Source: Herbaspirillum seropedicae
Lineage (GTDB): Bacteria > Pseudomonadota > Gammaproteobacteria > Burkholderiales > Burkholderiaceae_D
Direction of reading: 5' to 3'
Length of the DNA stretch: 64,000 nt
Assembly: GCF_001040945.1 (NCBI RefSeq)
Contig: NZ_CP011930.1
Location: 2,829,704 to 2,893,703 of the forward strand
Translations under genes and position numbers: made by a program
Notes under the pieces: model-generated
Told to the model about the DNA's origin: nothing
What the model saw: the letters and a program-made list of their open reading frames with translations, nothing else
The model's database searches: none
Part shown: piece by piece, positions 35,635 through 53,155 of the stretch
How the letters are laid out: the number at the start of each line of letters is the position of its first letter
Numbering within the stretch: the stretch's first letter is position 1

Positions 35635-37863
<2,229 letters not shown>

Positions 37864-37877
37864 GGCGTTGATCGGTG

Positions 37878-37911
37878 CGGGAGGGTAAGTGATTCATCGA
37901 TTGCCCTCCCG
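37878..37911 (+). terminator. GC-rich hairpin after icd
   Basis: Eight-base stem CGGGAGGG / CCCTCCCG with an 18-base loop, 15 bases after the icd stop and just before the main terminator. It may stabilise the end of the mRNA. Confidence 0.5.
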
Positions 37912-37922
37912 GCAGTAAAACG

Positions 37923-37954
37923 AAAAGGCCGCGAATGCAAGTCGCGGCCTTTTT
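37923..37954 (+). terminator. Rho-independent terminator of icd
   Basis: Twelve-base stem AAAAGGCCGCGA / TCGCGGCCTTTT, seven-base loop, then T. With A residues on the left arm it can act in both directions. Confidence 0.92.
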
Positions 37955-37992
37955 GCTTTGGCGGGGCTTGCCTGCAGGACCAGCCGCCGCCA

Positions 37993-38112
37993 ATGCCTTG
38001 ACTCCCGTTCGGACTGAGTAGCCGCACCAGTGCGGCGTATCGAAGACGCACCGACGGAGAATCTTCGATACGCGGCAAAGCCGCTACTCAGTCCGAACGG
38101 TTATCGAGGCAT
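37993..38112. repeat. Cloverleaf-forming interspersed repeat
   Basis: A 120-base element between convergent icd and eutC. The outer arms CCGTTCGGACTGAGTAGC (38005-38022) and its exact complement (38083-38100) pair perfectly over 18 bases and extend with ATGCCTTGA / TCGAGGCAT at the ends (one mismatch). Inside are three smaller hairpins: GCCGCAC-CA-GTGCGGC (38021-38036), GTATCGAAGA / TCTTCGATAC (38037-38071) and GCGGC-AAA-GCCGC (38072-38084). The fold resembles a cloverleaf. It has no ORF. It looks like a REP/MITE-type repeat; no second copy is seen in this window. Confidence 0.8.
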
Positions 38113-38158
38113 GGTCCTGTCGCAATCCGCGGCTGCGGCTGAGGCTGAGACTGAGACT

Positions 38159-39028
38159 TCAGGCGTCGCCTAGCAAGAAATTGCGCCGCACGTCCAGCGC
38201 CTCCCCCTCACTGGCCGTCTCATCCTTCAAGGCCACGCCCGACAAACTGCGCTGGTGCGCCTGCGCCATCAGGTAATGCAGCTTGTAGGCCGCTTCCGGA
38301 TAGGGCAAGCCTTCCGGGCGCACATTGGAGATGCAATTGCGGCTGGCGTCGGTGAGTCCGCGTGCGGGCATCCAGGTCAGATACAGGCCCATGCTGTCGG
38401 GCGAACTCAGTCCGGGCCGCTCGCCGATCAGGATCACCACCAGCTTCACGCCCAGCAACTCGCCGATCTCATCGGCCACCGCCACCCGCCCCTGCTGCAC
38501 GATCACCGGCGGCGCCATCGACCATCCCTCCGGGGCGATCCGCTTCATCAGCTCGGCCAGGAAGGGAGCGGCATTGCGCACGATGGCCAATGCCGACAGT
38601 CCATCGGCAATCACCAAGCCCACATCGTAGCGCCGCTGCGGCTGGGTGCCGAAAAGTTCAAGCAGCTGCTGGCGCGATGGTTCCGACAGCTTGCGGCCAA
38701 AGTCAGGTCGCTGCAGATACACCAGCCGATCCGCTGCGGCGCTTTGCACATCCAGCACCTCTTGCGCAGCGCAGACGCCCTGCTCCTGCAACTGCGCCTT
38801 CAGCGCAGCCACATCCAGCGGCAGGTGCACCGCGTCGCGCGCCTGCGCGTGCGCCAGCTGGAAGGCCAGTTGCGGCTGCGTCGGCAAGCTCACGCCGCTG
38901 CGCCCCAAGGCAATGCGGGCCGCGGTAAAACGACGCAGCGCTTCCCACGGATTGGCCGTGACCGTTTCGGCACCGGGGCTGGCGTTTTCTGCACATTGGG
39001 GGGAAATGTTCTTGTCGTCCATGGTCAT
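38159..39028 (-). CDS. eutC: Ethanolamine ammonia-lyase small subunit EutC
   Basis: Small subunit of the adenosylcobalamin-dependent enzyme that converts ethanolamine to acetaldehyde and ammonia. 289 residues. After a polar 25-residue N-terminal tail it follows the family: [89 protein letters not shown] and [17 protein letters not shown]. The conserved Cys in RNCISN and the Arg before it contribute to cobalamin binding in this subunit. Its ATG overlaps the eutB stop by four bases, as expected for subunits made in fixed ratio. Last gene of the eut operon. Confidence 0.96.
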
Positions 39029-40431
39029 TGCAGGCGTAGCAAGGTCTCGCGGAAACCGGGCGGCATGTCGGCATGCAGGCGAAACGCCTGATCCTCGCCA
39101 CCGGGGTTGAAGATCTGCATCCGGTGCAGCCAGTCCTCGAACTCCGGCGCTGGCCGCGAACCCAGCACACGCCGGGCATACAGTGCATCGTGGAAGGACG
39201 TGGTCTGGTAGTTGAGCATGATGTCGTCCGAGCCGGGAATGCCCATGACGAAGGTGCAGCCGGCCACGCCCAGCAGGGTCAGCAGCACGTCCATGTCGTT
39301 CTGGTCGGCCTCGGCATGGTTGGTGTAGCAGACATCGCAGCCCATGGGCAGGCCCAGCAGCTTGGCGCAGAAATGGTCTTCCAGTCCGGCGCGGATGATC
39401 TGCTTGCCATCGTAGAGATATTCCGGCCCGATGAAGCCGACCACGGTATTGACCAGCAGCGGCTTGAAGGCGCGCGCCACCGCATAGGCGCGCGCTTCGC
39501 AGGTCTGCTGGTCGATGCCGTGATGGGCGTTGGCCGACAGCGCGCTGCCCTGGCCGGTTTCGAAATACATGACGTTGTCACCCACGGTGCCGCGCTGCAA
39601 GGACAGCGCCGCCTCGCGCGCCTCGCCCAGGAGGGCCAGGTCGATGCCGAAGCCGCGATTGGCCGCCTCGGTCCCGGCAATGGACTGGAACACCAGGTCC
39701 ACTGGCGCGCCGCGCTCGATGGCCGCAATCGTATTGGTGACGTGGGTCAGCACGCAGGATTGGGTGGGGATCTCGTAGCGCGCAATCACGTCGGCCATCA
39801 TCCCGACCAGCTTGACCACCTGCGGCACATTGTCGGTGGCGGGATTGATGCCGATGACGGCGTCGCCATTGCCGTACAGCAGGCCGTCGAGCATGCTGGC
39901 GGCGATGCCGCTGGCGTCGTCGGTGGGGTGATTGGGCTGCAGGCGGGTGGACAGCCGGCCCGGCAGGCCGATGGTATTGCGAAAGGCCGTGACCACGCGG
40001 CATTTCTTGGCCACCAGGATCAGGTCCTGGTTACGCATGATCTTGGACACCGCTGCGGCCATCTCTGGCGTGATCCCCGGTGCGACTGCCGCCAGCACCG
40101 CGCTGTCGGTGTCATCGGCCAGCAGCCAGTTGCGGAAGTCGCCCACCGTCAGATGGGCGATAGTGGCAAAGGCGGCGCGGTCGTGGCTGTCGAGGATGAG
40201 CCGGGTGACCTCGTCCTCTTCGTAAGGGATCAGCGGCTCCTCGAGGAAAGTCTTCAGCGGCAGCGCGGCCAGCGCCATCTGCGCAATGGCGCGCTCCTCG
40301 GCGCTGCCTGCGGCCACGCCGGCCAGCAGGTCGCCCGAACGCGCCGGGCTGGCCTTGGCCATCAGTTCCTTGAGATCGCGAAACACGTAGCTGGCGCTAC
40401 CTACGCTGTGCCGGAAACGGTGTTCGGCCAT
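39025..40431 (-). CDS. eutB: Ethanolamine ammonia-lyase large subunit EutB
   Basis: Catalytic TIM-barrel subunit that binds ethanolamine and cobalamin. 468 residues, slightly longer than the usual 453-460. Family features include the N-terminal [111 protein letters not shown] and [16 protein letters not shown]. The Glu in [10 protein letters not shown] is the substrate-contacting position. It lies 83 bases after the phosphatase gene and overlaps eutC. No microcompartment shell genes are present, so the reaction probably takes place free in the cytosol. Confidence 0.97.
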
Positions 40432-40514
40432 GATGATGCTCCTCCTGAATCACCGCCGCCCTGGGTGGCGGCGGTGTGTCACGCCCCTAAGCGGCCGACT
40501 GGCTGACCAGTGGG

Positions 40515-41837
40515 TCAGCTGGTCAGCAGTTGCGGCGCGGTCTTGCCGTACTTGATGCTGGCTTCCGCCGGCAGCCAATTGCCGGTCGATTCCTGGCGGC
40601 CCTGCAGCAGGAAGCGCGGCCTGCCTGCATTGATCTGCTCGGCCGCGAGTTTGGACAACTCGCCGATCTTGCCGTTCTTCATGCGGTTGACGATGAAGCC
40701 ATAGCGGGTCTCGGGGAAGTCGCGCAGCATATCGTAGTCGCCATCGCTGTCGCCGGCCACGAACAAGGGACCATAGCCCTTCTGCGCCACCAGCACCTGC
40801 CTGATGGCCACCGTCTTGCCCGGTCCCCAGGTCAGCGGCCAGTCCTTCAGGTAGGCATTGCGCAACACTTGCCCGTTGCGCTCCAGGCGCAGGCCGATGA
40901 TGTTGTCACGACTGACGTGATAGCCATACTTGGGATGGGTGGCGAACACCGCCACCACCTCTTCCAGAGAGGCGGTGCAGACATAGACATCGATGCCATT
41001 GCGGCGCAGCGCGTCCATGAGCGTCGCGATCTCGGTGCACAACCGGATGCCGTGGAAATGCGACACGCTCACCACGCCCGCCCTGCCCGGGCGTTGCGCC
41101 GGGCTGGTGTACTTGACCTTGGTCAGCGCCGCGCCCAGGGCGGCATCGTTGGAAGCCTCGGCCAGCGCGCTCACCTCGGCCACGCTCATGTTGGCGAAGA
41201 AGTAGATCACCCAGGGATAGCCGACCGCCACGCCGTGGGTATCGTTGACGGCTTCATAGAGATAGTAGAGCTTGGCGCGGAAGTCCTGGAACTCCGGCGT
41301 GGCGCTGACTTCTTCCAGCGACTTGCTGCCGGCCATGCCCTTGTAGTTGGCGTAGAGGAAGGCATAGTCGGCATCGAGGTCGGCGCAGATGGCTTCCAGG
41401 TCCACGACCTCGCCAGCCGCATTCTTGAAGTCCTTGCTGAAGGGACCGGGCGGCACGTTCTGCCGCGTGATGGCGGAAAACTCGGCCGGCGTCAGCTTGA
41501 AGGACAGCGTGTTGATCTGGTGCATCAGCAAGGCTTCTTCGCAGTCGTTCATGATGCTGGTGTTGTCCCAGTCGAACACGGCGTAGGGGCGTTTGCTGCT
41601 CTGGTAGCCCGCGGCCAGCTTGCCATGCTCGGCAATCATCTGCGCCACCATCTCGTGATTGCGCGCGGCCCACTTGGCGCGGTCCAGCGCCACTTCGGCG
41701 CGTGCCGCGGCCTGGCCGGGCGTGGCGATAGTGGCCAGCGCCCCGCCGGCAGCGGCAGCCAGCAGGCCGCCCAGGAAGCCACGGCGCTTGAGGGTGGGTG
41801 CGGCGGTATCGGTCGTCGGTTTGTGATTGTTGTTCAT
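40515..41837 (-). CDS. Tat-exported HAD-superfamily phosphatase
   Basis: Predicted periplasmic phosphatase of 440 residues in the HAD superfamily. The signal sequence has twin arginines at 18-19 (KRRGFLGGLLAAAAGG) followed by an Ala-rich segment and a likely cleavage site near QAAARA, so it should leave by the Tat route already folded. The nucleophile motif is YAVFDWDNTS (Asp89, Asp91), motif II is CTASLEE, and the metal-binding motif is AGDSDGDYDML. The DWDNT motif and the length resemble phosphorylcholine/phosphoserine-type phosphatases such as Pseudomonas PchP. It sits between the ethanolamine permease and eutB in one operon, so I infer that it releases ethanolamine (or choline) from phosphoethanolamine-like compounds. 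Substrate unproven. Confidence 0.82.
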   Translation of the reverse strand: MNNNHKPTTDTAAPTLKRRGFLGGLLAAAAGGALATIATPGQAAARAEVALDRAKWAARNHEMVAQMIAEHGKLAAGYQSSKRPYAVFDWDNTSIMNDCEEALLMHQINTLSFKLTPAEFSAITRQNVPPGPFSKDFKNAAGEVVDLEAICADLDADYAFLYANYKGMAGSKSLEEVSATPEFQDFRAKLYYLYEAVNDTHGVAVGYPWVIYFFANMSVAEVSALAEASNDAALGAALTKVKYTSPAQRPGRAGVVSVSHFHGIRLCTEIATLMDALRRNGIDVYVCTASLEEVVAVFATHPKYGYHVSRDNIIGLRLERNGQVLRNAYLKDWPLTWGPGKTVAIRQVLVAQKGYGPLFVAGDSDGDYDMLRDFPETRYGFIVNRMKNGKIGELSKLAAEQINAGRPRFLLQGRQESTGNWLPAEASIKYGKTAPQLLTS

Positions 41838-41886
41838 GATGGCCCTGTCGAGTTATCGGTATATCGCTATAAAAGATTTATATCGT

Positions 41887-43269
41887 TCAGAATTCCGCAA
41901 CGGCCGCCGCCCCTTCGGCGCGCTGGCGCGCCGTGGCCAGGAACCAGGCATAGCCCAGCGCCAGCAAGGCCACGAAGATGCCGAAGATCAGCGGGTTGTA
42001 ATAGATCATGGTGGCCATGCACACCAGCGCACCGAACAAGGCGAAGGCCGGGAAGTACGGGTACAGCGGTGCGCGGAAGGGCCGCTCCAGGCCGGCCTCG
42101 GCGCGGCGCAGGCGGAACAGCGAAAGCATCGAGAGGATGTACATCAGGATGGCGCCGAACACCGACATGGTGACGATATTGGCGGTGAGGGTCTGGCCGC
42201 CGATCTTGATCAGCTCATCGCTGTAGATGGCGGCGATCCCCACCACGCCACCGGCCAGGATGGCCCGGTGCGGCGTCTTGAAGCGCGGATGGACGCGGGC
42301 GAAATAGGCCGGCAGATAGCCTTCGCGGGCCAGCGCAAAGATCTGGCGCGAATATCCCAGGATGATCCCGTGGAAGGAAGCCACCAAGCCGAACAGGCCC
42401 AACCAGACCAGCATGTGCAGCCAGTTGCTGTTGTCGCCGACGATCAGCTTCATGGCCTGCGGCAGCGGGTCATTGATGTTGGCCAGCTTGGTCCAGTCGC
42501 CTGCGCCGCCGGCAAAGAGCATCACGCCAATGGCCAGCACGACCAGCGTGAGAATGCCGGTGATGTAGGCAATCGGAATGGAGCGCCGCGGATCCTTGGC
42601 TTCTTCGGCGGCCATGGCCACGCCTTCGATGGCCAGGAAGAACCAGATCGCAAAGGGGATCGCCGCGAACATGCCCGGCACCGCAGCCAGGCTGAAGCCG
42701 TCGCTGCCCGACCAGCCGCCCTTGGTGAAATTGGCCAGCGAGAAGCCCGGCGCCACCACCCCCATGAAGACCAGTAATTCAAAGATCGCCAGCAAGGTCA
42801 CGAAGAGCTCAAAGGTGGCCGCGATCTGCACCCCCACGATGTTGAGCGTCATGAACACCAGATAAGCGCCCAGCGCCGCCAGTTTGGGGTCGATGTTGGG
42901 GAACTGCACATTGAGATAGGCCCCAATAGCCAGGGCAATGGCCGGTGGCGCAAAGACGAATTCGATCAGCGTGGCCGCCCCGGCCAGATAACCCCCGACC
43001 GGCCCGAAGGCGCGCTTGCTATAGGCAAACGGCCCGCCGGCATGCGGAATGGAGGTGGTCAGTTCGGTAAAGCTGAAGATGAAGGTGGCATACATGGCGG
43101 CGATGAACAGCGCCGTCACCGTGAAGCCCAGCGTGCCGGCGCTGGCCCAGCCATAGCTCCAGCCGAAGTATTCACCGGAAATCACCAGCCCGACCGCAAT
43201 GGCCCAGAGCTGCAGAGTGGACAGGACGGGCTTGAGCGTATGGCCTTGCCCGGAAGAGCTTGCATTCAT
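41887..43269 (-). CDS. eat: Ethanolamine permease (APC family)
   Basis: Inner-membrane ethanolamine importer of 460 residues with about 12 membrane helices, of the APC superfamily ethanolamine permease group. Family landmarks: LWAIAVGLVISGEYFGWSYGWA, FTELTTSIPHAGGPFAYSKRA, EFVFAPPAIALAIGAY, FFLAIEGVAMAAEEAKDPRRSIP, SFHGIILGYSRQIFALAREGYLPAYFA and FKTPHRAILAGGVVG. First gene of the operon eat, phosphatase, eutB, eutC. The start has AGGAG six bases upstream. It is divergent from the AraC-type regulator. Confidence 0.94.
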   Translation of the reverse strand: MNASSSGQGHTLKPVLSTLQLWAIAVGLVISGEYFGWSYGWASAGTLGFTVTALFIAAMYATFIFSFTELTTSIPHAGGPFAYSKRAFGPVGGYLAGAATLIEFVFAPPAIALAIGAYLNVQFPNIDPKLAALGAYLVFMTLNIVGVQIAATFELFVTLLAIFELLVFMGVVAPGFSLANFTKGGWSGSDGFSLAAVPGMFAAIPFAIWFFLAIEGVAMAAEEAKDPRRSIPIAYITGILTLVVLAIGVMLFAGGAGDWTKLANINDPLPQAMKLIVGDNSNWLHMLVWLGLFGLVASFHGIILGYSRQIFALAREGYLPAYFARVHPRFKTPHRAILAGGVVGIAAIYSDELIKIGGQTLTANIVTMSVFGAILMYILSMLSLFRLRRAEAGLERPFRAPLYPYFPAFALFGALVCMATMIYYNPLIFGIFVALLALGYAWFLATARQRAEGAAAVAEF

Positions 43270-43387
43270 GGGATTCTCCTGTTGGCGCGAACGATAGGCC
43301 GCTATGTGTCGGCTGCTGTAGTGTCGGGCATGGCGCTTGCTTGATATCGATCAATACGCTGCCCTAGCGACGCAATATAGCAACGGC

Positions 43388-43415
43388 AAATTCGGCGGCG
43401 TTATCGAAATTCGGC
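43388..43415. promoter_or_regulatory. Direct repeat in the eat-eutR intergenic region
   Basis: AAATTCGGC occurs at 43388-43396 and 43407-43415, 19 bases apart, with CGGCAAA flanks. Same-orientation half-sites two turns apart are the usual AraC-family operator arrangement; EutR is the natural candidate. It lies 47-74 bases before eutR and about 130 bases before eat. Confidence 0.5.
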
Positions 43416-43461
43416 AAAACTGCGCGGCTTGCGGGCCGCTGGTCGATCAAGGAGTCCGTCC

Positions 43462-44460
43462 ATGTCCTCGTGCTTACTGTCCCAGCCTGACACACCTGCC
43501 ACGCCCATCCAGCGGGCATTGCGCACCACCGTTGCGCGCGACGTGGATGAGCATGCCCACAACCTGACGGACTGGGAACAGCGCTACGACCAGATCACCT
43601 GCGGCAGTTTCGAAGGCGTATTGCAAGAGTGGCAAAGCGATGGCCTGCAGATCTTCCGCGAAGCCAGCAGCCGGGCGGTGCGCCAGTCCTGCCAGGTGTG
43701 GCCGGACGCCTACTGGTTTGGCATCGAGGCGCGCACCACGGGCATGCGCATCAATGGCCGCCAGGTTGGCGAGGATGTGGTGATGACCCGCCCGGGCGCC
43801 TGCGAATTCGAACTGGTCACGCCGGATGCGCATGAGATCTACGGCATCGTGGTCCAGCGCGACGCCTTGCAGGCCAGCGCTGCACGGCTGGGCTGCCAGC
43901 CGGACTGGCAGCGACTGGGCCAGGCCGAACTGCTCAAGGTCGACCATGGCGGACTGGAGGATTGCCGCCAGCAGATCGCCGCCCTGCTGGCCATGGCCGG
44001 CCAGGCCAGCGGCGCGCATGCGGCGCTGCAGCTGCGCCAGGAGGCGGTCCTGGTGGCGCTGCTGGCCATGCTGGATGAGGGCGAGATCGAGGCCGAGGCT
44101 GGCGCCAGCTTCCTGCGCCGCCGCCGCATCGTCAATGACGCCCGCGAGTTCGCCATGGCCCACCAGGACAGCCCGGTCACCGTACCCATGCTGTGCGAGG
44201 CGGTCCATGTGAGCCGGCGCACGCTGCAATACTGCTTCGAAGATGTGCTGGGCATGAGCCCCATGAGTTACCTGCGCTCGCTGCGCCTGAACGGCGTGCG
44301 CCGCGCCCTGTGCCATGGCGATGGCCGCCAGGCCGTGGGCAGCATCGGTGACATCGCAGCGGCCTGGGGCTTTGCCAATTTCAGCCAGTTCTCCTGCGAC
44401 TACAAGAAGCTGTTCGGCCAGACGCCCTCGGCCATGCTGCAGGCGCGCACGCGGCATTGA
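43462..44460 (+). CDS. eutR: AraC-family activator of ethanolamine genes, EutR-like
   Basis: Transcription activator (332 aa) predicted to induce the divergent eat-eutBC operon with ethanolamine and cobalamin. The N-terminal two-thirds is an effector/dimer domain (EQRYDQITCGSFEGVLQEW, CQVWPDAYWFGIEARTTGMRINGRQ, GEDVVMTRPGACEFELVTP). The C-terminal domain carries two helix-turn-helix units (VPMLCEAVHVSRRTLQYCFED and IGDIAAAWGFANFSQFSCDYKKLFGQTPS) of AraC type. I use the ATG at 43462 with AAGGAG seven bases upstream; an earlier TTG is a poor start. Assignment rests on adjacency and on the EutR-like cytosine-box recognition region; moderate for the specific name. Confidence 0.88.
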   Translation: MSSCLLSQPDTPATPIQRALRTTVARDVDEHAHNLTDWEQRYDQITCGSFEGVLQEWQSDGLQIFREASSRAVRQSCQVWPDAYWFGIEARTTGMRINGRQVGEDVVMTRPGACEFELVTPDAHEIYGIVVQRDALQASAARLGCQPDWQRLGQAELLKVDHGGLEDCRQQIAALLAMAGQASGAHAALQLRQEAVLVALLAMLDEGEIEAEAGASFLRRRRIVNDAREFAMAHQDSPVTVPMLCEAVHVSRRTLQYCFEDVLGMSPMSYLRSLRLNGVRRALCHGDGRQAVGSIGDIAAAWGFANFSQFSCDYKKLFGQTPSAMLQARTRH

Positions 44461-44524: not shown

Positions 44525-45592
44525 ATGATCCTCTCTCGCTTGCGTTCGCTGCCTGTCCTGCCCTTGGTCACGCTGTTCATGGCGCTCACGATGCTGACGG
44601 CGATCACGGCCCGCTCTGCCGACGCCGCTCCGGTCGCCCAGCCACTCACCCTGCCCGGCCCCACGCCCTACACCCTTACGCTGTACGCCAATGCCGACCT
44701 GAGCCACCCGCCTGCCGCGCTGCAACGGGCGGTGGTGATCGTCCACGGAATCAAGCGCAATGCCGACGATTACTTCGCCATCGGCCAGCGCCTGCTGACG
44801 GCTGCGCAACTGTCACCGGCCACCACCCTGCTGCTGGCCCCACGCTTCATGACCGCCAGGGACAGCGGGGCCTCGGCGCAGATGGCGCTATGGGCGGGCG
44901 ATGCCTGGATGCAGGGCGCAGCCTCAAAGGACGGTGTGACCGGCATAACGAGCTTCCAGGCGCTGGACGACCTCCTGCGCTGGCTGGCCGATGCCGGGCG
45001 CTTCCCGGCCCTGCGCGAGATCGTGCTCATCGGCCACTCCGCCGGCGCGCAACTGATGCAGCGCTACGCGATGTTGAACAGCCTTGACGAAGCCCTGCAA
45101 CAGCGCAACATCCACCTGCGCTATGTGGTCTCCAGTCCGTCATCGTATCTGTATGCCAGCCCGGAACGTCCCGACGGCAACGGCTTTGCGCTTCCCAAGA
45201 CGGCGGCCTGCCCGGACTACGACGATTATCGCTATGGCCTGCAGCAAGCGCCGCCCTACCTGGCCCGGCAAGAACTGGACGGCCCCCGGCTGTTCGCCCG
45301 CTATGCCGGGCGCGACGTGCGCTACATGGTAGGCCAGCACGATACCGATCCGCAGCAGCGCTTCCTGGACCGCAGCTGCGCCGCAGCGCTGCAGGGCGCC
45401 AGCCGGGTGGCGCGCCAGCTCGCCTACGTGGCTTATGAGCAGTTTCTGGCGCAGCGATGGCAGCGCCCGGTGCGCCACGAACAGCGCCTCATTCCCGGCG
45501 CGGCGCATGGCGCCGAGCGGCTCTTCGGACGTCCCGAGGCGGTCGGCTGGATCTTCCCCGGCCATGCCTCCGTTACCGCTGGTACAGAGTAA
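44525..45592 (+). CDS. Secreted alpha/beta hydrolase
   Basis: Predicted exported alpha/beta-hydrolase of about 355 residues. The N-terminus is a signal peptide (MILSRLRSLPVLPLVTLFMA, Ala-rich, likely cut after ARSADA). The mature part has RAVVIVHGIKRNADDYF (oxyanion-hole region) and the nucleophile elbow IVLIGHSAGAQLMQRYA with the catalytic Ser in GHSAG; the final His is probably in PGAAHGAERLFG. Substrate is unknown; a peptidase-like or esterase role is possible. An ATG ten codons upstream (44495) is also in frame, but it would put Pro and Asp before the signal peptide, so I prefer 44525; neither has a strong ribosome site. The gene follows eutR in the same direction with a 64-base gap. Confidence 0.75.
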   Translation: MILSRLRSLPVLPLVTLFMALTMLTAITARSADAAPVAQPLTLPGPTPYTLTLYANADLSHPPAALQRAVVIVHGIKRNADDYFAIGQRLLTAAQLSPATTLLLAPRFMTARDSGASAQMALWAGDAWMQGAASKDGVTGITSFQALDDLLRWLADAGRFPALREIVLIGHSAGAQLMQRYAMLNSLDEALQQRNIHLRYVVSSPSSYLYASPERPDGNGFALPKTAACPDYDDYRYGLQQAPPYLARQELDGPRLFARYAGRDVRYMVGQHDTDPQQRFLDRSCAAALQGASRVARQLAYVAYEQFLAQRWQRPVRHEQRLIPGAAHGAERLFGRPEAVGWIFPGHASVTAGTE

Positions 45593-45659
45593 TGCTGGTC
45601 GGCCGCCTGCCGACGCGGCACAATGCGCCCTGCCCCTCTGTTGACGACGAGACCATGCC

Positions 45660-47531
45660 ATGACGGCCAGCCCTGCCCCCGCGTTTTCCCTCGATAACTT
45701 CGAGTACCTCTGCTACGCCCGCCAGCACGAAGCCGCTGCGCGGGAGCTGGTCAGGCTGCTGGCCCTGATCGACCGGCATTACGGCCAGCTGACCGGGCAA
45801 TTCCCGCTGTCGGTCTCGCCAGCCGTGCCGGCGGCGGCGCTCGAACAGCACATCCTGAGCCGCATCACGAGCGCCATCTCGGCCCTGTTCTCGGACCCCA
45901 GCTTCCACATCAGTCCGGATGGCTTCGGCCAGCTCATCCACTTCCAGCGCTGGCTGGCCGCGCTCTTCGCGGCCAGTCCCTTCATCCATGCCGACCACAT
46001 CCTGCGCGCACTCAATCCGGGCGGGCCGCAGGCGAAAACGGTGGAGGTCAAGCCGCTGGACCTGGTCAAGTTCTGCCTGCTCTACTCGCCCGAATCGGAA
46101 CTGCCGCTGGACGTGGAAATGCTATGGGCGCAGAACCCGCCGCTGGCGGCCGCCCTGTTCCTGGCGCTGATGTCGCCCCGCTTCCTGGGCACGCCCGCCG
46201 CCCATTCCAAGCGTGAAGCACTGCTGGGCTGGCTGCCGGATCGGCTGCAACAGCTCGATTCGCTGGCCGGCCTGCCGGTGGCCGTGCTGCACGACGTCTA
46301 CATGCATTGCAGCTACGCCGACCTGCCGCAACGCCACCGCATCAAGGGCGCGATCAACCAGCTGTTGCAGAAGACCCTGCGCAGTGAAGGCCTGGACGAC
46401 CTGGACCAGGATGGCGCCGCCCGCGTGGATGGCAAGCCCATCATGCTGGTGCTGGTGGAATGGTTTTCCGGCGGACATTCGATCTATCGCACCCACTCCA
46501 AGACGATGGAAGCGGCGCGGCGGCATTTCCATCTGGTGGGCCTGGGCTTCGAGGCCAATACCGATGCGCTGGGGCGCGCCGTCTTCGATGAATTCATCGA
46601 TCTGGGCAAGCCCTCCGACCTGATCGGCAGCATCCGGAGATTGCGCGAGATCGCCGGCCAGCGTCAGCCCCGGGTGTTCTACATGCCCAGCGTGGGGATG
46701 TTCCCGATCACCATGTTCGCCGCCAACCTGCGGCTGGCGCCGTTGCAAGTGGCCGGGCTCGGCCATCCGGCCACCACGCATTCCCCGCACATCGACTACA
46801 TCAGTGTGGAAGAAGACTTCGTCGGCGACCCCGCCTGCTTCAGCGAGCAGTTGCTGCGCCTGCCCGCCGACGGCCAGCCCTACCGGCCCTCGGCGATCCC
46901 GTTCGAGATCCCCATACGGGAGCGCAGCGACCGGCCAGAGGTGCAGGTGGCCATCGCCGCCACGACGATGAAGCTCAATCCGCGCTTCCTGATGGCTTGC
47001 CAGCAGATCGTGGCGCTGGCGGCCAATCCGCCCGCAGGCCAGCCGGGGCGGCAGCTGCGGCTGCACTTCCTGGTGGGACAGGCGCAGGGCCTGCTGTATC
47101 CGCAGCTGCGACGGCTGATCCTGCGCTATGTGCCCAGCGCGCAGGTCTATGCGCACCAGCCCTACCAGCAATACCTGTCGATCTTCAACCAATGCGACAT
47201 GTTCCTCTCGCCCCTGCCCTTCGGCAATACCAACGGCATCATCGACGCCTTCACGGTGGGCTTGCCGGGTGTCTGCAAGACCGGGCCGGAAGTCTTCGAG
47301 CACATCGACGAGGGCCTGTTCCGCCGCGTCGGGCTGCCCGACTGGACCATTGCCGCCACGCTGGACGACTACATCCAGGCCGCCGTGCGCATGGCCACCG
47401 ACTATCCGGCGCGTAGTGCGCTGTATGCGCACCTGGCCGACCCGCGCGCATTGCAGAGGCTCTTCGAGGGACGGCCGGAATCACTGGGCGATGCGCTGAT
47501 GGCGTTGTGCCGGCAAGACGCGCCGCAGTAG
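45660..47531 (+). CDS. HMW1C-like cytosolic N-glycosyltransferase (GT41)
   Basis: A 623-residue protein of the HMW1C/NGT family, which attaches glucose from UDP-glucose to Asn in N-X-S/T sequons of exported adhesins, in the cytosol. Signatures: an N-terminal helical part (SFHISPDGFGQLIHFQRWLAALFA), DVYMHCSYADLPQRH, GGHSIYRTHSKTMEAARRHF (His273), VFYMPSVGMFPITMFAANLRLAPLQ, GLGHPATTHSPHIDY, ATTMKLNPRFLMA (Lys438) and FPFGNTNGIIDAFTVGLPGVCKTG-type segments with Asp529 and EHIDEGLFRRVGLPDW. From memory the Actinobacillus enzyme has its key Lys, His and Asp in these same motifs. No HMW-like adhesin, TpsB partner or other sugar gene is near. GC and codon use match the neighbours, so transfer is not obvious. 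Confidence 0.93.
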   Translation: MTASPAPAFSLDNFEYLCYARQHEAAARELVRLLALIDRHYGQLTGQFPLSVSPAVPAAALEQHILSRITSAISALFSDPSFHISPDGFGQLIHFQRWLAALFAASPFIHADHILRALNPGGPQAKTVEVKPLDLVKFCLLYSPESELPLDVEMLWAQNPPLAAALFLALMSPRFLGTPAAHSKREALLGWLPDRLQQLDSLAGLPVAVLHDVYMHCSYADLPQRHRIKGAINQLLQKTLRSEGLDDLDQDGAARVDGKPIMLVLVEWFSGGHSIYRTHSKTMEAARRHFHLVGLGFEANTDALGRAVFDEFIDLGKPSDLIGSIRRLREIAGQRQPRVFYMPSVGMFPITMFAANLRLAPLQVAGLGHPATTHSPHIDYISVEEDFVGDPACFSEQLLRLPADGQPYRPSAIPFEIPIRERSDRPEVQVAIAATTMKLNPRFLMACQQIVALAANPPAGQPGRQLRLHFLVGQAQGLLYPQLRRLILRYVPSAQVYAHQPYQQYLSIFNQCDMFLSPLPFGNTNGIIDAFTVGLPGVCKTGPEVFEHIDEGLFRRVGLPDWTIAATLDDYIQAAVRMATDYPARSALYAHLADPRALQRLFEGRPESLGDALMALCRQDAPQ

Positions 47532-47535
47532 CGGC

Positions 47536-47919
47536 TCAGGCCGGCAGTCCGGGCGCGGCCTGTTGCGGCGGCAAGGCAGACAGCGCCGGCAGGCCCAGGG
47601 CCTGGCGGCGCTGCTGGCATACGGGATTGGGACGACCATCGGCCTCCCAGGGAGAGAATTCGCGACAGGTACTGGGCCGCCGCGGATAGATGCTGCAGCC
47701 CACGCCCGGCTGTCCCAGCTCACCTACCAGCGCAATGCAACGGCCATGGCCGTGTTCGGTGCCTTTCATGCAGGCCAGGCTGTCGTTGACCTTGCTGGTC
47801 AGTTCCACCGGCACCATGCCGCCGAGCCCATCGCTGAGCTCGCCGCAATAGAAGGACACGCGGAAATGCGCGCAGCAACCGCCGCAAGCGGTGCAGGGAT
47901 TGTCGGGGGAGTCGGCCAT
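47536..47919 (-). CDS. YkgJ-family cysteine-cluster protein
   Basis: About 127 residues with the family's Cys pattern: CTACGGCCAHFRVSFY near the N-terminus and CSIYPRRPSTCREFSPW near the C-terminus, with further Cys in LACMKG and RCIALV. In YkgJ-type proteins these cysteines are thought to hold a zinc or iron-sulphur site; the function is unknown, and some relatives act in oxidoreductase maturation. The start is uncertain: an ATG at 47976 would add 19 residues (ENQALHWIIDEDRL). It converges with the glycosyltransferase with a four-base gap and shares no operon with it. Confidence 0.85.
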   Translation of the reverse strand: MADSPDNPCTACGGCCAHFRVSFYCGELSDGLGGMVPVELTSKVNDSLACMKGTEHGHGRCIALVGELGQPGVGCSIYPRRPSTCREFSPWEADGRPNPVCQQRRQALGLPALSALPPQQAAPGLPA

Positions 47920-48051
47920 GTCGGTGAAGAGGCGGTCTTCATCGATGATCCAGTGGAGGGCCTGATTCTCACGCATAAGAACGGTACGTCAGACAAAGAT
48001 GCCATGATACGACAGCTGCGGCCTGCACCGCAGGCTGTCGCAGATCTGCGT

Positions 48052-49077
48052 TCAGCTCCCCTTGCGCTCCTTGAACGCCGGCACGAACATCTCGTGCCAC
48101 ACCGCCGGCTTGGTCTTGATGGTGCCGGCTTTGCTCATGAAGACCACGTATTGCATGATGTCCACCGGTGTCGAGGTGAACTCGGTACCAGGGTCAGCCA
48201 GCATCTGTTCCACTTCCTCCTGCGGCAGCTTCAGCTTGGACACGCGCAGGAAGATCTCGGCCGCACCCTTGCGGTTCTTGGCGATGTAGGCGTTGGCCTC
48301 TTCCTGCGCGGCCATGAAGGCCTGGGTCAGCTTGGGGTTCTTGTCGGTAAAGGACTTCAGCGCAAAGACCACGTCGATGGTGATATGGCCCAGCACGTCG
48401 GTGGAATTCAACACGCGGGTAATGCCGGGAGCCTTGGCTTCCTGGTAGGAGAACGGCGGCGAGGTGAAGTGCGCGGTGATCTCGGTCTTGCCCGAGACCA
48501 GCGAGGCCATCGCTTCCGGGTGCGACAGGCTCACCGTCAGCGGGTCCAGCTTGGCATAGTTCTCGATGCCGAAGGTCTTGGCGGCCGCCATCTGCAACAG
48601 CACCGCCGACAGCGAGGTCTTGATGCCGGGGATGGCGATCTTGTCCTTGGGCGTGAAGTCCTTCAGCGACTTGACGTTGGGGTTGTTGGTGTTGAGCCAG
48701 AGCGGCGAGGTCGACAGCGCGCCCAGGCCCACCACTTCCGAGCGCGGGATGCCGTGCGCCTTGGACCACAGCGTCACGAAGCCAGGTGCACCGGTGCCGG
48801 CAATGTCGAGGTTGCCGGCCAGCATGGCGTCATTGATGACGTTGCCGCCATCGAGCAGCACCCACTTGGTCTTGACCTCACCCAGACCCATGGCCTTGGC
48901 GTGCTTTTCCACCAGATTCTGGTCGCGGATCACCATCAGCGGCAGGTACAGCAGGCCATAGCCGTGTGAGATGCGCACTTCCTGGGCTTCGGCATGGGCC
49001 GTGCCGGATACGCCGGACAGCGCCAGGGCGCTGGCGATCATGAGGCTGGTGAAAGTGCGTCGGGTGTATCGTTGCAT
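48052..49077 (-). CDS. ABC transporter substrate-binding protein, SsuA/TauA-like
   Basis: Periplasmic solute-binding protein of 341 residues in the SsuA/TauA/NMT1 family (sulfonates, nitrate, thiamine-pyrimidine and similar). The signal sequence contains TRRTFTS and is Tat-compatible, followed by ASALALSGVSGTAHA with a likely cut after AHA. The mature part shows SHGYGLLYLPLMVIRDQNLVEKHAK, GGNVINDAMLAGNLDIAGTGA, NPNVKSLKDFTPKDKIAIPG and HFTSPPFSYQEA. Unlike many family members it has no C-terminal extension. It follows permease and ATPase genes in the same direction, but the 97-base gap before it holds a 24-base palindrome, so it may also be controlled separately. Substrate unknown. Confidence 0.88.
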   Translation of the reverse strand: MQRYTRRTFTSLMIASALALSGVSGTAHAEAQEVRISHGYGLLYLPLMVIRDQNLVEKHAKAMGLGEVKTKWVLLDGGNVINDAMLAGNLDIAGTGAPGFVTLWSKAHGIPRSEVVGLGALSTSPLWLNTNNPNVKSLKDFTPKDKIAIPGIKTSLSAVLLQMAAAKTFGIENYAKLDPLTVSLSHPEAMASLVSGKTEITAHFTSPPFSYQEAKAPGITRVLNSTDVLGHITIDVVFALKSFTDKNPKLTQAFMAAQEEANAYIAKNRKGAAEIFLRVSKLKLPQEEVEQMLADPGTEFTSTPVDIMQYVVFMSKAGTIKTKPAVWHEMFVPAFKERKGS

Positions 49078-49106
49078 GCTTGTCTCCTGAAGGTCGTCAG
49101 TTTATC

Positions 49107-49149
49107 GGTCTTGTAGGGATGATGCGGGTCTTGTATGCATACAAGACCC
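49107..49149. promoter_or_regulatory. 24-base perfect palindrome with direct repeat upstream of the binding-protein gene
   Basis: Arms GGGTCTTGTATG and CATACAAGACCC meet without a spacer (49126-49149). GGTCTTGTA is repeated at 49107-49115, 20 bases before its copy in the palindrome. The TTGTATGCATACAA core is of the kind bound by GntR-family regulators. It lies in the 97-base gap between permease and binding-protein genes, 50-72 bases before the latter. Confidence 0.65.
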
Positions 49150-49174
49150 TATGGCTTGATGAATGGCTACATGC

Positions 49175-50044
49175 TTAGTGCTGCATGCCCCAACGGCGGA
49201 TGGTGCGCTTCTCGATCTGGGCGAAGATCAGGTTCTCGACCACCAGGCCGATGATGATCACGAAGAACAGGCCCGAGAACACATTGGCTGTTTCCAGCTG
49301 GTTGCGGTTTTCGAAGATGTACCAGCCCAGCCCGCCCGCACCGGAGGACACGCCAAAGACCAGCTCGGCCGCGATCAGCGTACGCCAGGCAAAGGCCCAG
49401 CCGACCTTCAGACCCGTGAGGATGCTGGGGAAGGCCGCCGGAATGAGGATGGATTTGACCAGCGAGAAGCGACGCAGTCCATAGTTCTGGCCCACCATGC
49501 GCAGCGTGTTGGAAACAGCGCGGAAGCCGCCATGGGTATTCAAGGCTACCGCCCACAGCACCGAATGCACCAGCACGAAGATGATGCTGCCGGTGCCCAG
49601 GCCGAACCAGATCAGCGCCAGCGGCAACAGCGCAATGGCCGGCAGCGGGTTGAACATGGAGGTCAGGGTTTCCAGCAGGTCATTGCCGATGCGCGAGCTG
49701 ATGGCTACCGTGGTCAGCAGCCCGGCCAGCAGGATGCCCAGGCCATAGCCGACCAGCAGCGTCTGCATCGATACCGCCGCGCGCTGCAGCAGCACGCCGC
49801 TGCCGATGCCGGAGAGGAAGGCTTGCACCGTCTCGCTGAAGCTGGGGAAGAGCAAGGCATTGTCCAGCCAGCGGCCATAGACTTCCCAGATCGCCGCCAG
49901 CACCAGCAGGATCACGGTCTTGCGCAGCCAGCCCATGCGGTAGAGCGACTCGAAGGCCGACAGCGGGCGCTGGACTTCAGCGGTGGCGTGGGGGTTGGGG
50001 TCCACCAGGATTTCCGGGCGGACGAAGGGCAGATTGGTGTGCAT
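49175..50044 (-). CDS. ABC transporter permease, SsuC/TauC-like
   Basis: Inner-membrane permease of 289 residues with about six helices of the BPD_transp_1 type. It includes the EAA loop region ETLTSMFNPLPAIALLPLALIWFGLG, and GFRAVSNTLRMVGQNYGLRRFSLVKSILIPAAFPSILTGLKVG with the conserved Gly of the cytosolic ATPase-contacting loop. The polar first 45 residues precede helix one. Belongs with the ATPase upstream (20-base gap) and the binding protein downstream. Confidence 0.93.
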   Translation of the reverse strand: MHTNLPFVRPEILVDPNPHATAEVQRPLSAFESLYRMGWLRKTVILLVLAAIWEVYGRWLDNALLFPSFSETVQAFLSGIGSGVLLQRAAVSMQTLLVGYGLGILLAGLLTTVAISSRIGNDLLETLTSMFNPLPAIALLPLALIWFGLGTGSIIFVLVHSVLWAVALNTHGGFRAVSNTLRMVGQNYGLRRFSLVKSILIPAAFPSILTGLKVGWAFAWRTLIAAELVFGVSSGAGGLGWYIFENRNQLETANVFSGLFFVIIIGLVVENLIFAQIEKRTIRRWGMQH

Positions 50045-50064
50045 GATGAGGTCTCCGGCGCGGC

Positions 50065-50856
50065 TCAGTGATGGGCGAACAGCATGTCGTTGATGCGGGT
50101 TTCCAGCTCGGCCTGGGCAGCCGTGCCAAGCTGGGACGGATCGATGCTGTTGAGTTCGGCGCGGACCTGGCCGGGATGGGGTGTCAGCAGCAGGATGCGG
50201 GTGCCCACGCGGATCGCTTCTTCAATCGAGTGGGTCACGAAGAGGACGGTGAACTGGGTGTCGTCCCACAGGCGCAGCAGCTCGTCTTGCATCTTGCGGC
50301 GGGTCAGGGCGTCGAGGGCGGCAAAGGGTTCGTCCATGAGCAGCACATCCGGCTCCATGGCCATGCCGCGGGCGATGGAGACGCGCTGCTTCATGCCGCC
50401 GGAGAGCATGTGCGGATAGCTGTCGATGAACTTGGCCAGGCCGACCTTGCTGATGTAGTACTCGGCACGCTCGGCGGCGGCACGGCCTTGCAGGCGGCCG
50501 CTGGCGTGCAGCGCGAATTCGACGTTCTGGCGCACGGTCTTCCAGGGCAGCAGTTGGTCGAATTCCTGGAACACCATCATGCGGTCCGGACCGGGCTCGT
50601 GCACTTCCCTGCCCTTGAGGCGGATCGCACCGGAGGTCGGCTGCAGATAGCCGCCGATGGCCTTCAGCAAGGTGGATTTGCCGCAGCCCGAGGGGCCCAG
50701 CAGGATGTAGCGGTCGCCCGGATGGACGTTGAAGCTCACGCTCTGCGTGGCGGTGACCAGTGAATCGGTGGTCTTGTATTGCAGGGTGACACGGTCGATT
50801 TCCAGCAGCGGGCGCGATGGATCGATGCTCGACGCACCTTGGGCATGGTCGCTCAT
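50065..50856 (-). CDS. ABC transporter ATP-binding protein, SsuB/TauB-like
   Basis: ATPase subunit (263 aa) that powers import with the neighbouring permease and binding protein. Walker A LLGPSGCGKSTLL, Q-loop MVFQEFDQLLPWKTV, signature LSGGMKQRVSIARGMA, Walker B DVLLMDEPFAALD, D-loop and switch VTHSIEEA are all present. The start at 50856 is supported by GGAG seven bases upstream; the slightly longer frame would begin with TTG. First gene of the ABC operon, divergent from a response regulator. Substrate class (sulfonate, nitrate, aromatic) cannot be fixed from the ATPase. Confidence 0.94.
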   Translation of the reverse strand: MSDHAQGASSIDPSRPLLEIDRVTLQYKTTDSLVTATQSVSFNVHPGDRYILLGPSGCGKSTLLKAIGGYLQPTSGAIRLKGREVHEPGPDRMMVFQEFDQLLPWKTVRQNVEFALHASGRLQGRAAAERAEYYISKVGLAKFIDSYPHMLSGGMKQRVSIARGMAMEPDVLLMDEPFAALDALTRRKMQDELLRLWDDTQFTVLFVTHSIEEAIRVGTRILLLTPHPGQVRAELNSIDPSQLGTAAQAELETRINDMLFAHH

Positions 50857-50923
50857 GCAAGTCTCCAAATGATTTATAGGATTTATGTTGGAGAGGATGC
50901 TAGGCCGCGAAGCTGTAACGAAT

Positions 50924-50956
50924 CTGACTAAACACTGACGCTTGTTTTTCCCTGAC
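50924..50956. promoter_or_regulatory. Repeated CTGAC motifs upstream of the response regulator
   Basis: CTGAC at 50924, 50934 and 50952 on the plus strand (10 and 18 bases apart) in the 173-base gap between the ABC operon and the response regulator gene. Ten-base-phased direct repeats are the pattern bound by OmpR-family regulators, so the adjacent regulator may act here. A -10-like TACAAT follows near 50978. Confidence 0.4.
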
Positions 50957-51029
50957 GGTTAGGGCATACAATGGCGCCTGCCCAAGCAGCGCCCACAGCT
51001 GCGGCATCGCAACAACAACGGAGATCCCC

Positions 51030-51749
51030 ATGCGCATCCTGCTGGTCGAAGACACTGCCGACGTGGCCGAGGCCATCGTCACCCACCTCAACCGCATCGG
51101 CCATACCGTGGAATGGGAAAGCAATGGGGCACACGCCAGCCGCCGCCTCTCTGAATCCTATGACCTGCTGATCCTGGACGTGATGCTGCCGCAGCAGGAC
51201 GGTTTCAGCCTGCTGCAGCAACTGCGTACGCGCGGACACCATACGCCGGTGCTGATGCTGACCGCCTGCGCCGAAGTCGAGGAGCGGGTCCGCGCCCTGG
51301 ACCTGGGCGCGGACGATTACCTGGTCAAGCCCTTCGATTTCCGCGAACTCGACGCCCGCATCCGCGTACTGCTGCGCCGCAGCGGCGGCGAATCGACCAA
51401 CCTGCTGCACTGCGCCAACCTGTCGATCGACCGCAAGAGCCGCAGCGCCACCCTGGACGGCCAGCCCATCGAGCTGACCCGGCGCGAGGTGACGCTGCTG
51501 GAAATCATCGCCGCCCGTCCCGGCCGCATCTTCAACAAGGATGAATTGATGGACCGGCTCTTCACGGTCGATGACAACCCCAGCGCCAACAGCGTGGAGC
51601 AATACGTGGCGCGCCTGCGCAAGAAGCTGGCGGCGGCCGCCTTTGAAATCCGCACCCTGCGCGGACTGGGCTACCAGCTGGTGCTGCATGCCCCGGCCGA
51701 GCCCGGGGCCGGTGCAGGCACTGCCGCCCACACCAGCCCGCTGCACTGA
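51030..51749 (+). CDS. OmpR-family response regulator (TctD/QseB-like)
   Basis: A 239-residue DNA-binding response regulator. Receiver domain (1-120) with acidic pocket VEDTADV, phosphoacceptor Asp50 in LILDVMLPQQDG, VLMLTACAEVEE and Lys in YLVKPFDFREL; winged-helix domain (125-225) with IELTRREVTLLEIIAARPGR, NSVEQYVARLRKKL and TLRGLGYQLV. Of the TctD/QseB/PmrA subgroup. A disordered Ala/Gly/Pro tail follows residue 225. The sensor kinase begins one base before its stop. It is divergent from the ABC transporter, so control of that operon is the natural guess. Confidence 0.93.
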   Translation: MRILLVEDTADVAEAIVTHLNRIGHTVEWESNGAHASRRLSESYDLLILDVMLPQQDGFSLLQQLRTRGHHTPVLMLTACAEVEERVRALDLGADDYLVKPFDFRELDARIRVLLRRSGGESTNLLHCANLSIDRKSRSATLDGQPIELTRREVTLLEIIAARPGRIFNKDELMDRLFTVDDNPSANSVEQYVARLRKKLAAAAFEIRTLRGLGYQLVLHAPAEPGAGAGTAAHTSPLH

Positions 51750-53155
51750 TGCAGGGCCGTACGCAACACGTCATCGCCGGGCGTTCGCTCTACACCCGCC
51801 TGGTCATCCGGGTGGGCGCGGTGCTGCTGGTGAGCGCGGCGGCGCTGCTGATCGCCATCTGGATTTCCACCCAGTTCGCCGCACGCGAAGCCTATGACCG
51901 CATCCTGGCCGGCAGCGCCTTGCAGATCGCGGAAAACACCTGGTACGACCATGGCGAGGTCAATGTCGATGTGCCCCTGGCGGCGCTGTCCATGCTGGGC
52001 ACCGGCGACCATGCCATCTATGCGGTGTTCGATCCGCGTGGCCGGGTCATCGCCGGCGACGCCGAATTCCGCCCCGAGATTCCCTGGCAGGAGCTGGAAC
52101 AGGGACCGCTGCTGCGCGACGGCCAATACCTGGGCACGCCGGTGCGCATGGCCATCATCGGCCGCCGCATGCCGGTCGAGGGTCCTCATCCCTGGGCCGT
52201 GATCGTGCTGGCGCAGACCAATAACGCCCGCATGTCTTTCGCCCAGAGCCTGGGCAGCCGGGCGCTGGTGGTGATCGTGGCCATGAGCGTGCTCACGCTG
52301 GTGGCGGCGATGTTTACGCTCTACCAGGCGCTGGCCCCGTTAAAACGTATCGAAGCGGCCATCCGCGAACGCGATCTCAACGACCTCTCGCCGCTGGTGC
52401 TGACCGTGCCGGCGGAAACGCATGCACTGGTCTCGGCCATCAATGCCTTCATGCAGCGGCTGGCGGTGCATCGCTCGACCATGCGCCGTGTCATCGGCGA
52501 CGCCGCCCATCAATTGCGCACGCCCGTGACCGCGCTGGTGGCCCAGATGGAATTGCTGGCCACGGAAGACAACGAGGAAAAGCGCCAGCGCCACCTCACG
52601 CTCTTGCGTGAGCGCACCCGCAACCTGGGCGCGCTGGTGAACCAGTTGATCAACCACGCCATGGTCCAGCATCGCAATGACAGCAGCCTGCAGGCGCGTA
52701 TCGACCTGGGCGAACTGGTGCGTTCGCAGATGACGGAAGTGCTCTCCAACCGCAGCCGCACGCCCCACGATCTGTCACTGGACGTGCCGCCGCTGCCCTG
52801 CCTGATCCGGGGTGACGCCATCAGTCTGGGCGAGGCGATCAAGAACATCCTCGACAACGCCCTGCAATATGGCGCGCCCGGCCTGTTGCAGGTCAGGCTG
52901 GAAAGCGACGGCCAGCGCCACTGGTTGCGCTTCATCGACGATGGTCCGGGCATTCCGGCGGCCGACTGGGAACGCCTGCGCAAGCCCTTCTCGCCACGCG
53001 GCGAGCAGCGCATGGGGGCGAGCCTGGGGCTGTCCATCGTCGAAGAAGTCATGCGCGCCCACGGCGGCGAACTGCGCTTTGCCTACCTGCCGGTAGGCCA
53101 CTTCGCGGTAGTGCTGGATTTCCCGGCCTGGCAAGCGCCGGCCGAGGTGGTCTGA
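51749..53155 (+). CDS. Sensor histidine kinase (TctE-like)
   Basis: A 468-residue membrane kinase partner of the upstream regulator (one-base overlap). Two membrane helices (about 19-41 and 171-192) frame a roughly 130-residue periplasmic domain of the 2CSK_N kind (AENTWYDHGEVNVDVPLAAL, YAVFDPRGRVIAGD). A HAMP-like linker (ALAPLKRIEAAIRERDLNDLSPL) leads to the H-box GDAAHQLRTPVTALVAQ (His254), N-box IKNILDNALQYG, DDGPGIP and ASLGLSIVEEVMRAHGG. Domain form matches TctE-type kinases, which sense di/tricarboxylates; here the neighbouring ABC operon suggests a different solute. Confidence 0.93.
   Translation: MQGRTQHVIAGRSLYTRLVIRVGAVLLVSAAALLIAIWISTQFAAREAYDRILAGSALQIAENTWYDHGEVNVDVPLAALSMLGTGDHAIYAVFDPRGRVIAGDAEFRPEIPWQELEQGPLLRDGQYLGTPVRMAIIGRRMPVEGPHPWAVIVLAQTNNARMSFAQSLGSRALVVIVAMSVLTLVAAMFTLYQALAPLKRIEAAIRERDLNDLSPLVLTVPAETHALVSAINAFMQRLAVHRSTMRRVIGDAAHQLRTPVTALVAQMELLATEDNEEKRQRHLTLLRERTRNLGALVNQLINHAMVQHRNDSSLQARIDLGELVRSQMTEVLSNRSRTPHDLSLDVPPLPCLIRGDAISLGEAIKNILDNALQYGAPGLLQVRLESDGQRHWLRFIDDGPGIPAADWERLRKPFSPRGEQRMGASLGLSIVEEVMRAHGGELRFAYLPVGHFAVVLDFPAWQAPAEVV

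Follow-up and report, generated by a model that had tools for sequence, protein, structure and literature searches.

An orphaned HMW1C-like N-glycosyltransferase in Herbaspirillum seropedicae, left over from an adhesin operon, and its candidate unlinked client

A gene for an HMW1C-like N-glycosyltransferase (NGT) of 623 residues lies at positions 45660..47531 (+ strand) of a 64,000-nucleotide stretch of the Herbaspirillum seropedicae chromosome (NZ_CP011930.1, 2,829,704 to 2,893,703), referred to below as the window. Together with the hydrolase gene in front of it, the NGT gene is the remnant of a hydrolase-TpsB-TpsA-lyase-NGT operon at the same chromosomal site. Probably it encodes an active cytosolic enzyme, the last gene of a deleted operon, which selection has kept as the modifier of a TpsA protein of the two-partner secretion (TPS) type encoded elsewhere, at about 330 kb of the genome (the 330-kb TpsA). 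The enzyme would move glucose from UDP-glucose to the Asn of N-X-S/T sequons in exported proteins prior to their secretion. TpsB, TpsA and lyase would have been deleted in the ancestry of the Herbaspirillum clade to which the window belongs, and the NGT would have been retained because the unlinked TpsA was modified by it as well.

The sequence-only reading of this DNA had called the product an HMW1C-like N-glycosyltransferase. This was borne out by matches in Pfam, NCBIfam and PDB, by a check of the site residues, and by a predicted structure that was compared with known folds by VIA-align. Residues 9-238 correspond to the all-alpha N-terminal domains HMW1C_N and HMw1_D2 (HMW1 domain 2) of Pfam and are followed by a GT-B catalytic part. 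The same reading had proposed an alignment to look for lost UDP-sugar-binding residues. Among the residues that contact the UDP-sugar and the N-X-S/T peptide in AaNGT (listed in PMC10507012), 15 of 16 were identical, including R174 and D212 (R177 and D215 of AaNGT); the sole difference is Gln500, where AaNGT has Ser495. The NCBIfam equivalog NGTferase scored 657.9 bits over residues 10-616, below its cut-off of 1000, so that the claim made here concerns family and fold and not the NCBI equivalog label. It had also been proposed to check for a GT41 protein of the O-GlcNAc type. That the protein is an O-glycosyltransferase of the O-GlcNAc/SPINDLY kind instead is hardly credible: its Glyco_transf_41 match (19.3 bits) is under the cut-off of 25, and no TPR family was reported by Pfam before the catalytic domain at E up to 0.01. 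The protein is a real HMW1C-like enzyme, conserved in family, fold and site residues and ordinary as an enzyme; by this likeness it is predicted to act on the Asn of N-X-S/T with UDP-glucose as donor. A second NGT copy was not found in the window genome.

The origin of the gene was read from relative loci, of which 80 were kept out of 97 matched. Hydrolase, TpsB, TpsA and NGT stand in one run in 19 of the 80 (5 from Herbaspirillum, 11 from Pseudomonas or Stutzerimonas and 3 from Polaromonas). Between TpsA and NGT, 10 of these operons have an exported protein of the argininosuccinate lyase kind; in 5 it is placed upstream, and in 4 it was not seen. The window hydrolase (44525..45592, +; an exported alpha/beta hydrolase of 355 residues from the ATG used, with an Abhydrolase_6 match below the Pfam cut-off) was the first gene of the operon and is 45-57% identical to gene 1 of intact operons. 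It is separated from the NGT, the former last gene, by a junction of 67 bp (45593..45659), the site of TpsB, TpsA and lyase in sister species (same-site intact operons L188+L036, L187+L038 and L184+L189). By tblastn synteny, the upstream flank (35635..44460) is common to sister species; it holds isocitrate dehydrogenase, genes which on our own reading of the sequences we take to be EutC, EutB, a HAD-like protein and an amino-acid permease, and an AraC regulator identified by Pfam. The same genes from EutC to AraC precede the five-gene operon in L188+L036 and L187+L038. In genome G142 (L184 upstream, L189 downstream) the operon comes after isocitrate dehydrogenase and before ABC transporter and two-component genes that are shared with the window. 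In the window this downstream flank (47536..53155; Pfam, synteny with L189) is composed of a CxxCxxCC protein (47536-47976, -), ABC transporter genes (-), and a response regulator and histidine kinase (+). As the earlier reading had stated, the NGT now stands alone: TpsB, TpsA and lyase had no match anywhere in the window, and the arrangement is not that of a TPS-linked NGT of the HMW1ABC type. The best match to the operon-type TpsB elsewhere in the window genome was only 34% identical. In the NGT tree the window clade is nested among operon-bearing lineages, which makes loss of the operon the simpler reading. The tree indicates separate losses in L040 and in L042/L043, and the TpsA tree is compatible with two losses rather than three.

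The TpsB of these operons is about 1010-1040 residues long (L041:1271-4318, L055:1355-4414, L056:17743-20865) and consists of POTRA, a ShlB barrel and about 450 further residues; in the NGT loci of Yersinia and Burkholderia TpsB has about 560-620. The extra C-terminal half is called porin-like from the look of its sequence and from a Porin_1 match in one paralogue only, and a PDB sequence search with it gave no match at E up to 0.01. The operon lyase (L041:8358-9899) has an apparent signal peptide and is a frequent member of the adhesin operon.

The NGT is under purifying selection in the window clade. Its frame is open in all 10 genomes, and its median dN/dS was 0.146 in nine of them (36 pairs), close to the 0.131 of the operon copies (10 pairs). 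For the hydrolase, 10 window-clade pairs gave 0.26 and 6 operon pairs 0.23. Five of the 10 genomes (G000, G082, G129, G264 and G297) have a full-length hydrolase, in G116 and G275 it is broken, and none was found in G026, G059 and G101. Such decay of the adjoining gene, and the finding that four genomes of the genus gave no NGT match (one being an incomplete assembly), would agree with an NGT that is a relic being lost, without a present client. However, the open frames, the dN/dS and the conserved contact residues all speak against a relic, which we consider improbable.

The hydrolase, secreted and adjacent, had been named as a candidate substrate. This did not hold, and the protein was rejected as a substrate since it contains 5 Asn and not one N-X-S/T; its relatives have 0-2 sequons. 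It is the other survivor of the same ancestral adhesin operon.

The statement that no adhesin is near is correct but applies to the locus only: four TpsA proteins and two autotransporters are encoded outside the window, and one of these proteins shows the sequon pattern that a client of an NGT should have. Trimeric autotransporters were also looked for, and no YadA anchor was found in the window genome. The 330-kb TpsA lies at about 330.5-334.8 kb, some 2.5 Mb from the NGT, with its own TpsB just upstream (328.9-330.4 kb). Against a null in which residues were shuffled within each protein, it has 40 N-X-S/T where 23.2 are expected (z score 4.0) and 25 N-X-T where 10.2 are expected (z 5.0). It is the only enriched one among the six type-V proteins tested in the genome, the N-X-T z of the other three TpsA being -0.5, 0.9 and -0.6. 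The two classical autotransporters were rejected as clients, as they are not enriched (N-X-T z 0.4 and -0.5). In a positive control of 37 TpsA-family proteins of at least 600 residues from NGT loci, the N-X-S/T z exceeded 2 in 28 and was positive in 36; members from Pseudomonas and Polaromonas were often weak. Background was taken from 276 genes of at least 200 residues in 20 evenly spaced 20-kb stretches and the window, about 8% of the genome. These had 434 sequons with 435.6 expected, and their top z was 3.6 for N-X-T and 4.4 for N-X-S/T. A strict DNA pattern of three clustered N-X-T codons had no match genome-wide, the enriched TpsA included, and is hence uninformative. The sequon counts point to the 330-kb TpsA as the likely present client of the NGT.

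This was examined further across 34 genomes of the genus, in which 40 TpsA frames were measured. The 26 with an N-terminal identity of at least 55% to the 330-kb TpsA were taken as orthologues: 12 from genomes with the orphan NGT, five from genomes with the operon, eight from genomes whose only NGT is distant (no more than 54% identical) and one from a genome without NGT. The remaining 14 frames, taken to be other TpsA or ones too distant, were not used; among them was that of G300 (without NGT; 44% identical, N-X-T z -0.4). Eight genomes had no usable orthologue, G196 and G297 because of contig ends, and G246, G269, G292, G296, G299 and G300 because it was distant, not found or incomplete. 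The groups are mixed in composition: the operon genomes G142 and G225 also carry a second NGT, five of the eight distant-NGT genomes carry the operon without an NGT, and the NGT of G258, also in that group, is near a TPS pair. Over the whole protein, the N-X-T z was 3.7-6.6 in the orphan group, 0.7-4.6 in the operon group and -1.6 to 2.8 in the distant-NGT group. In the passengers the excess of Thr at position +2 from Asn was 2.31 for the 330-kb TpsA, 2.24 for the orphan group, 1.57 for operon genomes and 1.01 for distant-NGT genomes; for comparison, it was 0.93 in the other TpsA of the window genome and 2.01 in the operon TpsA. In nine window-clade orthologues the +2 Ser/Thr of sequons exceeded other Ser/Thr in conservation (74% versus 65%); no such difference was seen in the operon (53% versus 53%) or distant-NGT group (52% versus 52%). 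In the distant-NGT group conservation was lower for sequon Asn than for other Asn (39% versus 53%). In rank tests, all uncorrected for kinship, N-X-T over expectation differed between orphan and distant-NGT groups (p 2.5e-4) and between orphan and operon groups (p 0.005), and N-X-T over T-X-N between orphan and distant-NGT groups (p 0.012). In G082 and G116, both draft assemblies, no other TpsA was found, so that the 330-kb type is their only TPS candidate.

Several observations weigh against the assignment of this client. The N-X-S/T z of the 330-kb TpsA is not above that of the top background gene, and it is therefore by N-X-T and by the number of sites that the protein is distinguished. With a z of 4.6 the operon genome G163 reaches the level of the orphans, the orthologue of G252, which lacks an NGT, still reaches 2.7, and two genomes of the orphan group, G129 and G026, hold a second, TPS-linked NGT. 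In the window clade sequon Asn gained nothing in conservation over other Asn (62% versus 61%). When N-X-T was set over T-X-N, orphan and operon groups differed only at p 0.15. Independent contrasts on the tree are few, three pairs for orphan versus rest and two for this NGT type versus its absence. Most pairs go in the expected direction or show no difference and almost none are opposite, but with two or three pairs significance is out of reach. The -2 spacing (T-X-N) is elevated as well (1.70 for the orphan and 1.31 for the distant-NGT group), so part of the excess is structural.

These last values bear on a different proposal, namely that the NGT is active and selected while it acts mainly on exported proteins other than this TpsA (outer-membrane, flagellar, fimbrial or several), the enrichment of the TpsA being a beta-helix feature of the lineage. 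Reported targets of ApHMW1C include autotransporters and other proteins of the outer membrane (PMC3983070), T-X-N is raised in the 330-kb TpsA itself, and the survey of sequon excess spans only the fraction of the genome given above. On the other hand, the excess peaks at +2, it is absent from same-fold orthologues in distant-NGT genomes, and no other surveyed gene matches the N-X-T excess of the 330-kb TpsA. Such a set of clients seems to us rather unlikely, and modification of the unlinked TpsA is preferred.

A mirror case was found in six distant-NGT genomes, where hydrolase-TpsB-TpsA-lyase is present and the retrieved stretch contains no NGT. Their operon TpsA has an N-X-T z of 2.5-5.4, and their 330-kb-type TpsA, usable in five of the six, is not or weakly enriched (-1.6 to 2.8). 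This fits NGTs that act in trans on a different TpsA in each lineage. It is tentatively proposed, as a possibility to which we give somewhat less than even weight, that clients were handed over: the NGT whose own TpsA was deleted would have survived by serving the unlinked TpsA, whose passenger gained or kept N-X-T, and those sister lineages in which the operon persists without this NGT would rely on a distant second NGT in trans. If so, the re-pairing of a protein-glycosylation enzyme with its substrates could be followed in this genus as a natural experiment. Second, distant NGTs beside a TpsA/TpsB pair were seen in L199, L200 and L201 (G246, G026 and G129), with 115, 110 and 231 N-X-S/T in the TpsA.

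Sequon-rich neighbours and NGT homologues also occur outside the genus. In Sapientia aquatica SA-152 (L082:1-9864) the frame just before the NGT, of at least 3287 residues and open at the locus end, has 404 N-X-S/T with 165 expected, and ends in repeats of the N-G-T and N-T-S type. Homologues of the NGT (best segment 41-49% identical) were present in metagenome bins labelled Cytophagales, Chlorobiaceae and Synechococcus (L074, L100, L106, L108-L110), where contamination of the bins is possible.

A 2014 study (PMC3983070) divided the HMW1C-like genes into a TPS-linked and an isolated class and left open what the isolated ones modify. A literature search found no description of this Herbaspirillum enzyme, operon or client, most of the matching texts not having been examined in full. 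A term search of the H. seropedicae SmR1 genome paper (PMC3093359) brought up hemagglutinins and adhesins but not a single word that starts with "glycosyl". Two filamentous hemagglutinin genes are raised in root-attached SmR1 cells according to a review (PMC6515357). Isolated NGTs with unlinked clients are already known. What is new is that the orphaning can be read from synteny and that an unlinked client, a putative one, is named. The locus shows how one NGT became isolated and offers one testable client in a plant-associated genus. This genus has a built-in comparison, its genomes variously carrying the operon, the orphan, another NGT or no NGT at all. An excess of sequons over a shuffled null may help to indicate NGT clients elsewhere.

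Compared with HMW1A-HMW1B-HMW1C of Haemophilus influenzae, the enzyme is of the same family and the ancestral operon likewise pairs TpsA and TpsB with an NGT. In contrast to that system, the ancestral Herbaspirillum operon starts with a hydrolase, has a TpsB of about 1010 residues and often a lyase, and the window locus is without TpsA, TpsB and lyase. Like the isolated NGT of Actinobacillus pleuropneumoniae, the gene has no TPS neighbours (PMC3012730, PMC3983070); that gene is described in a putative transcriptional unit rimO-ngt-agt (PMC5303269), whereas the window NGT adjoins a hydrolase left from a TPS operon. The NGT of Kingella kingae is also an isolated gene (PMC3983070), and its product N-glucosylates the adhesin Knh (PMC9592894). 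Knh, however, is a trimeric autotransporter, whereas the window genome has no YadA anchor and the predicted client is a TpsA.
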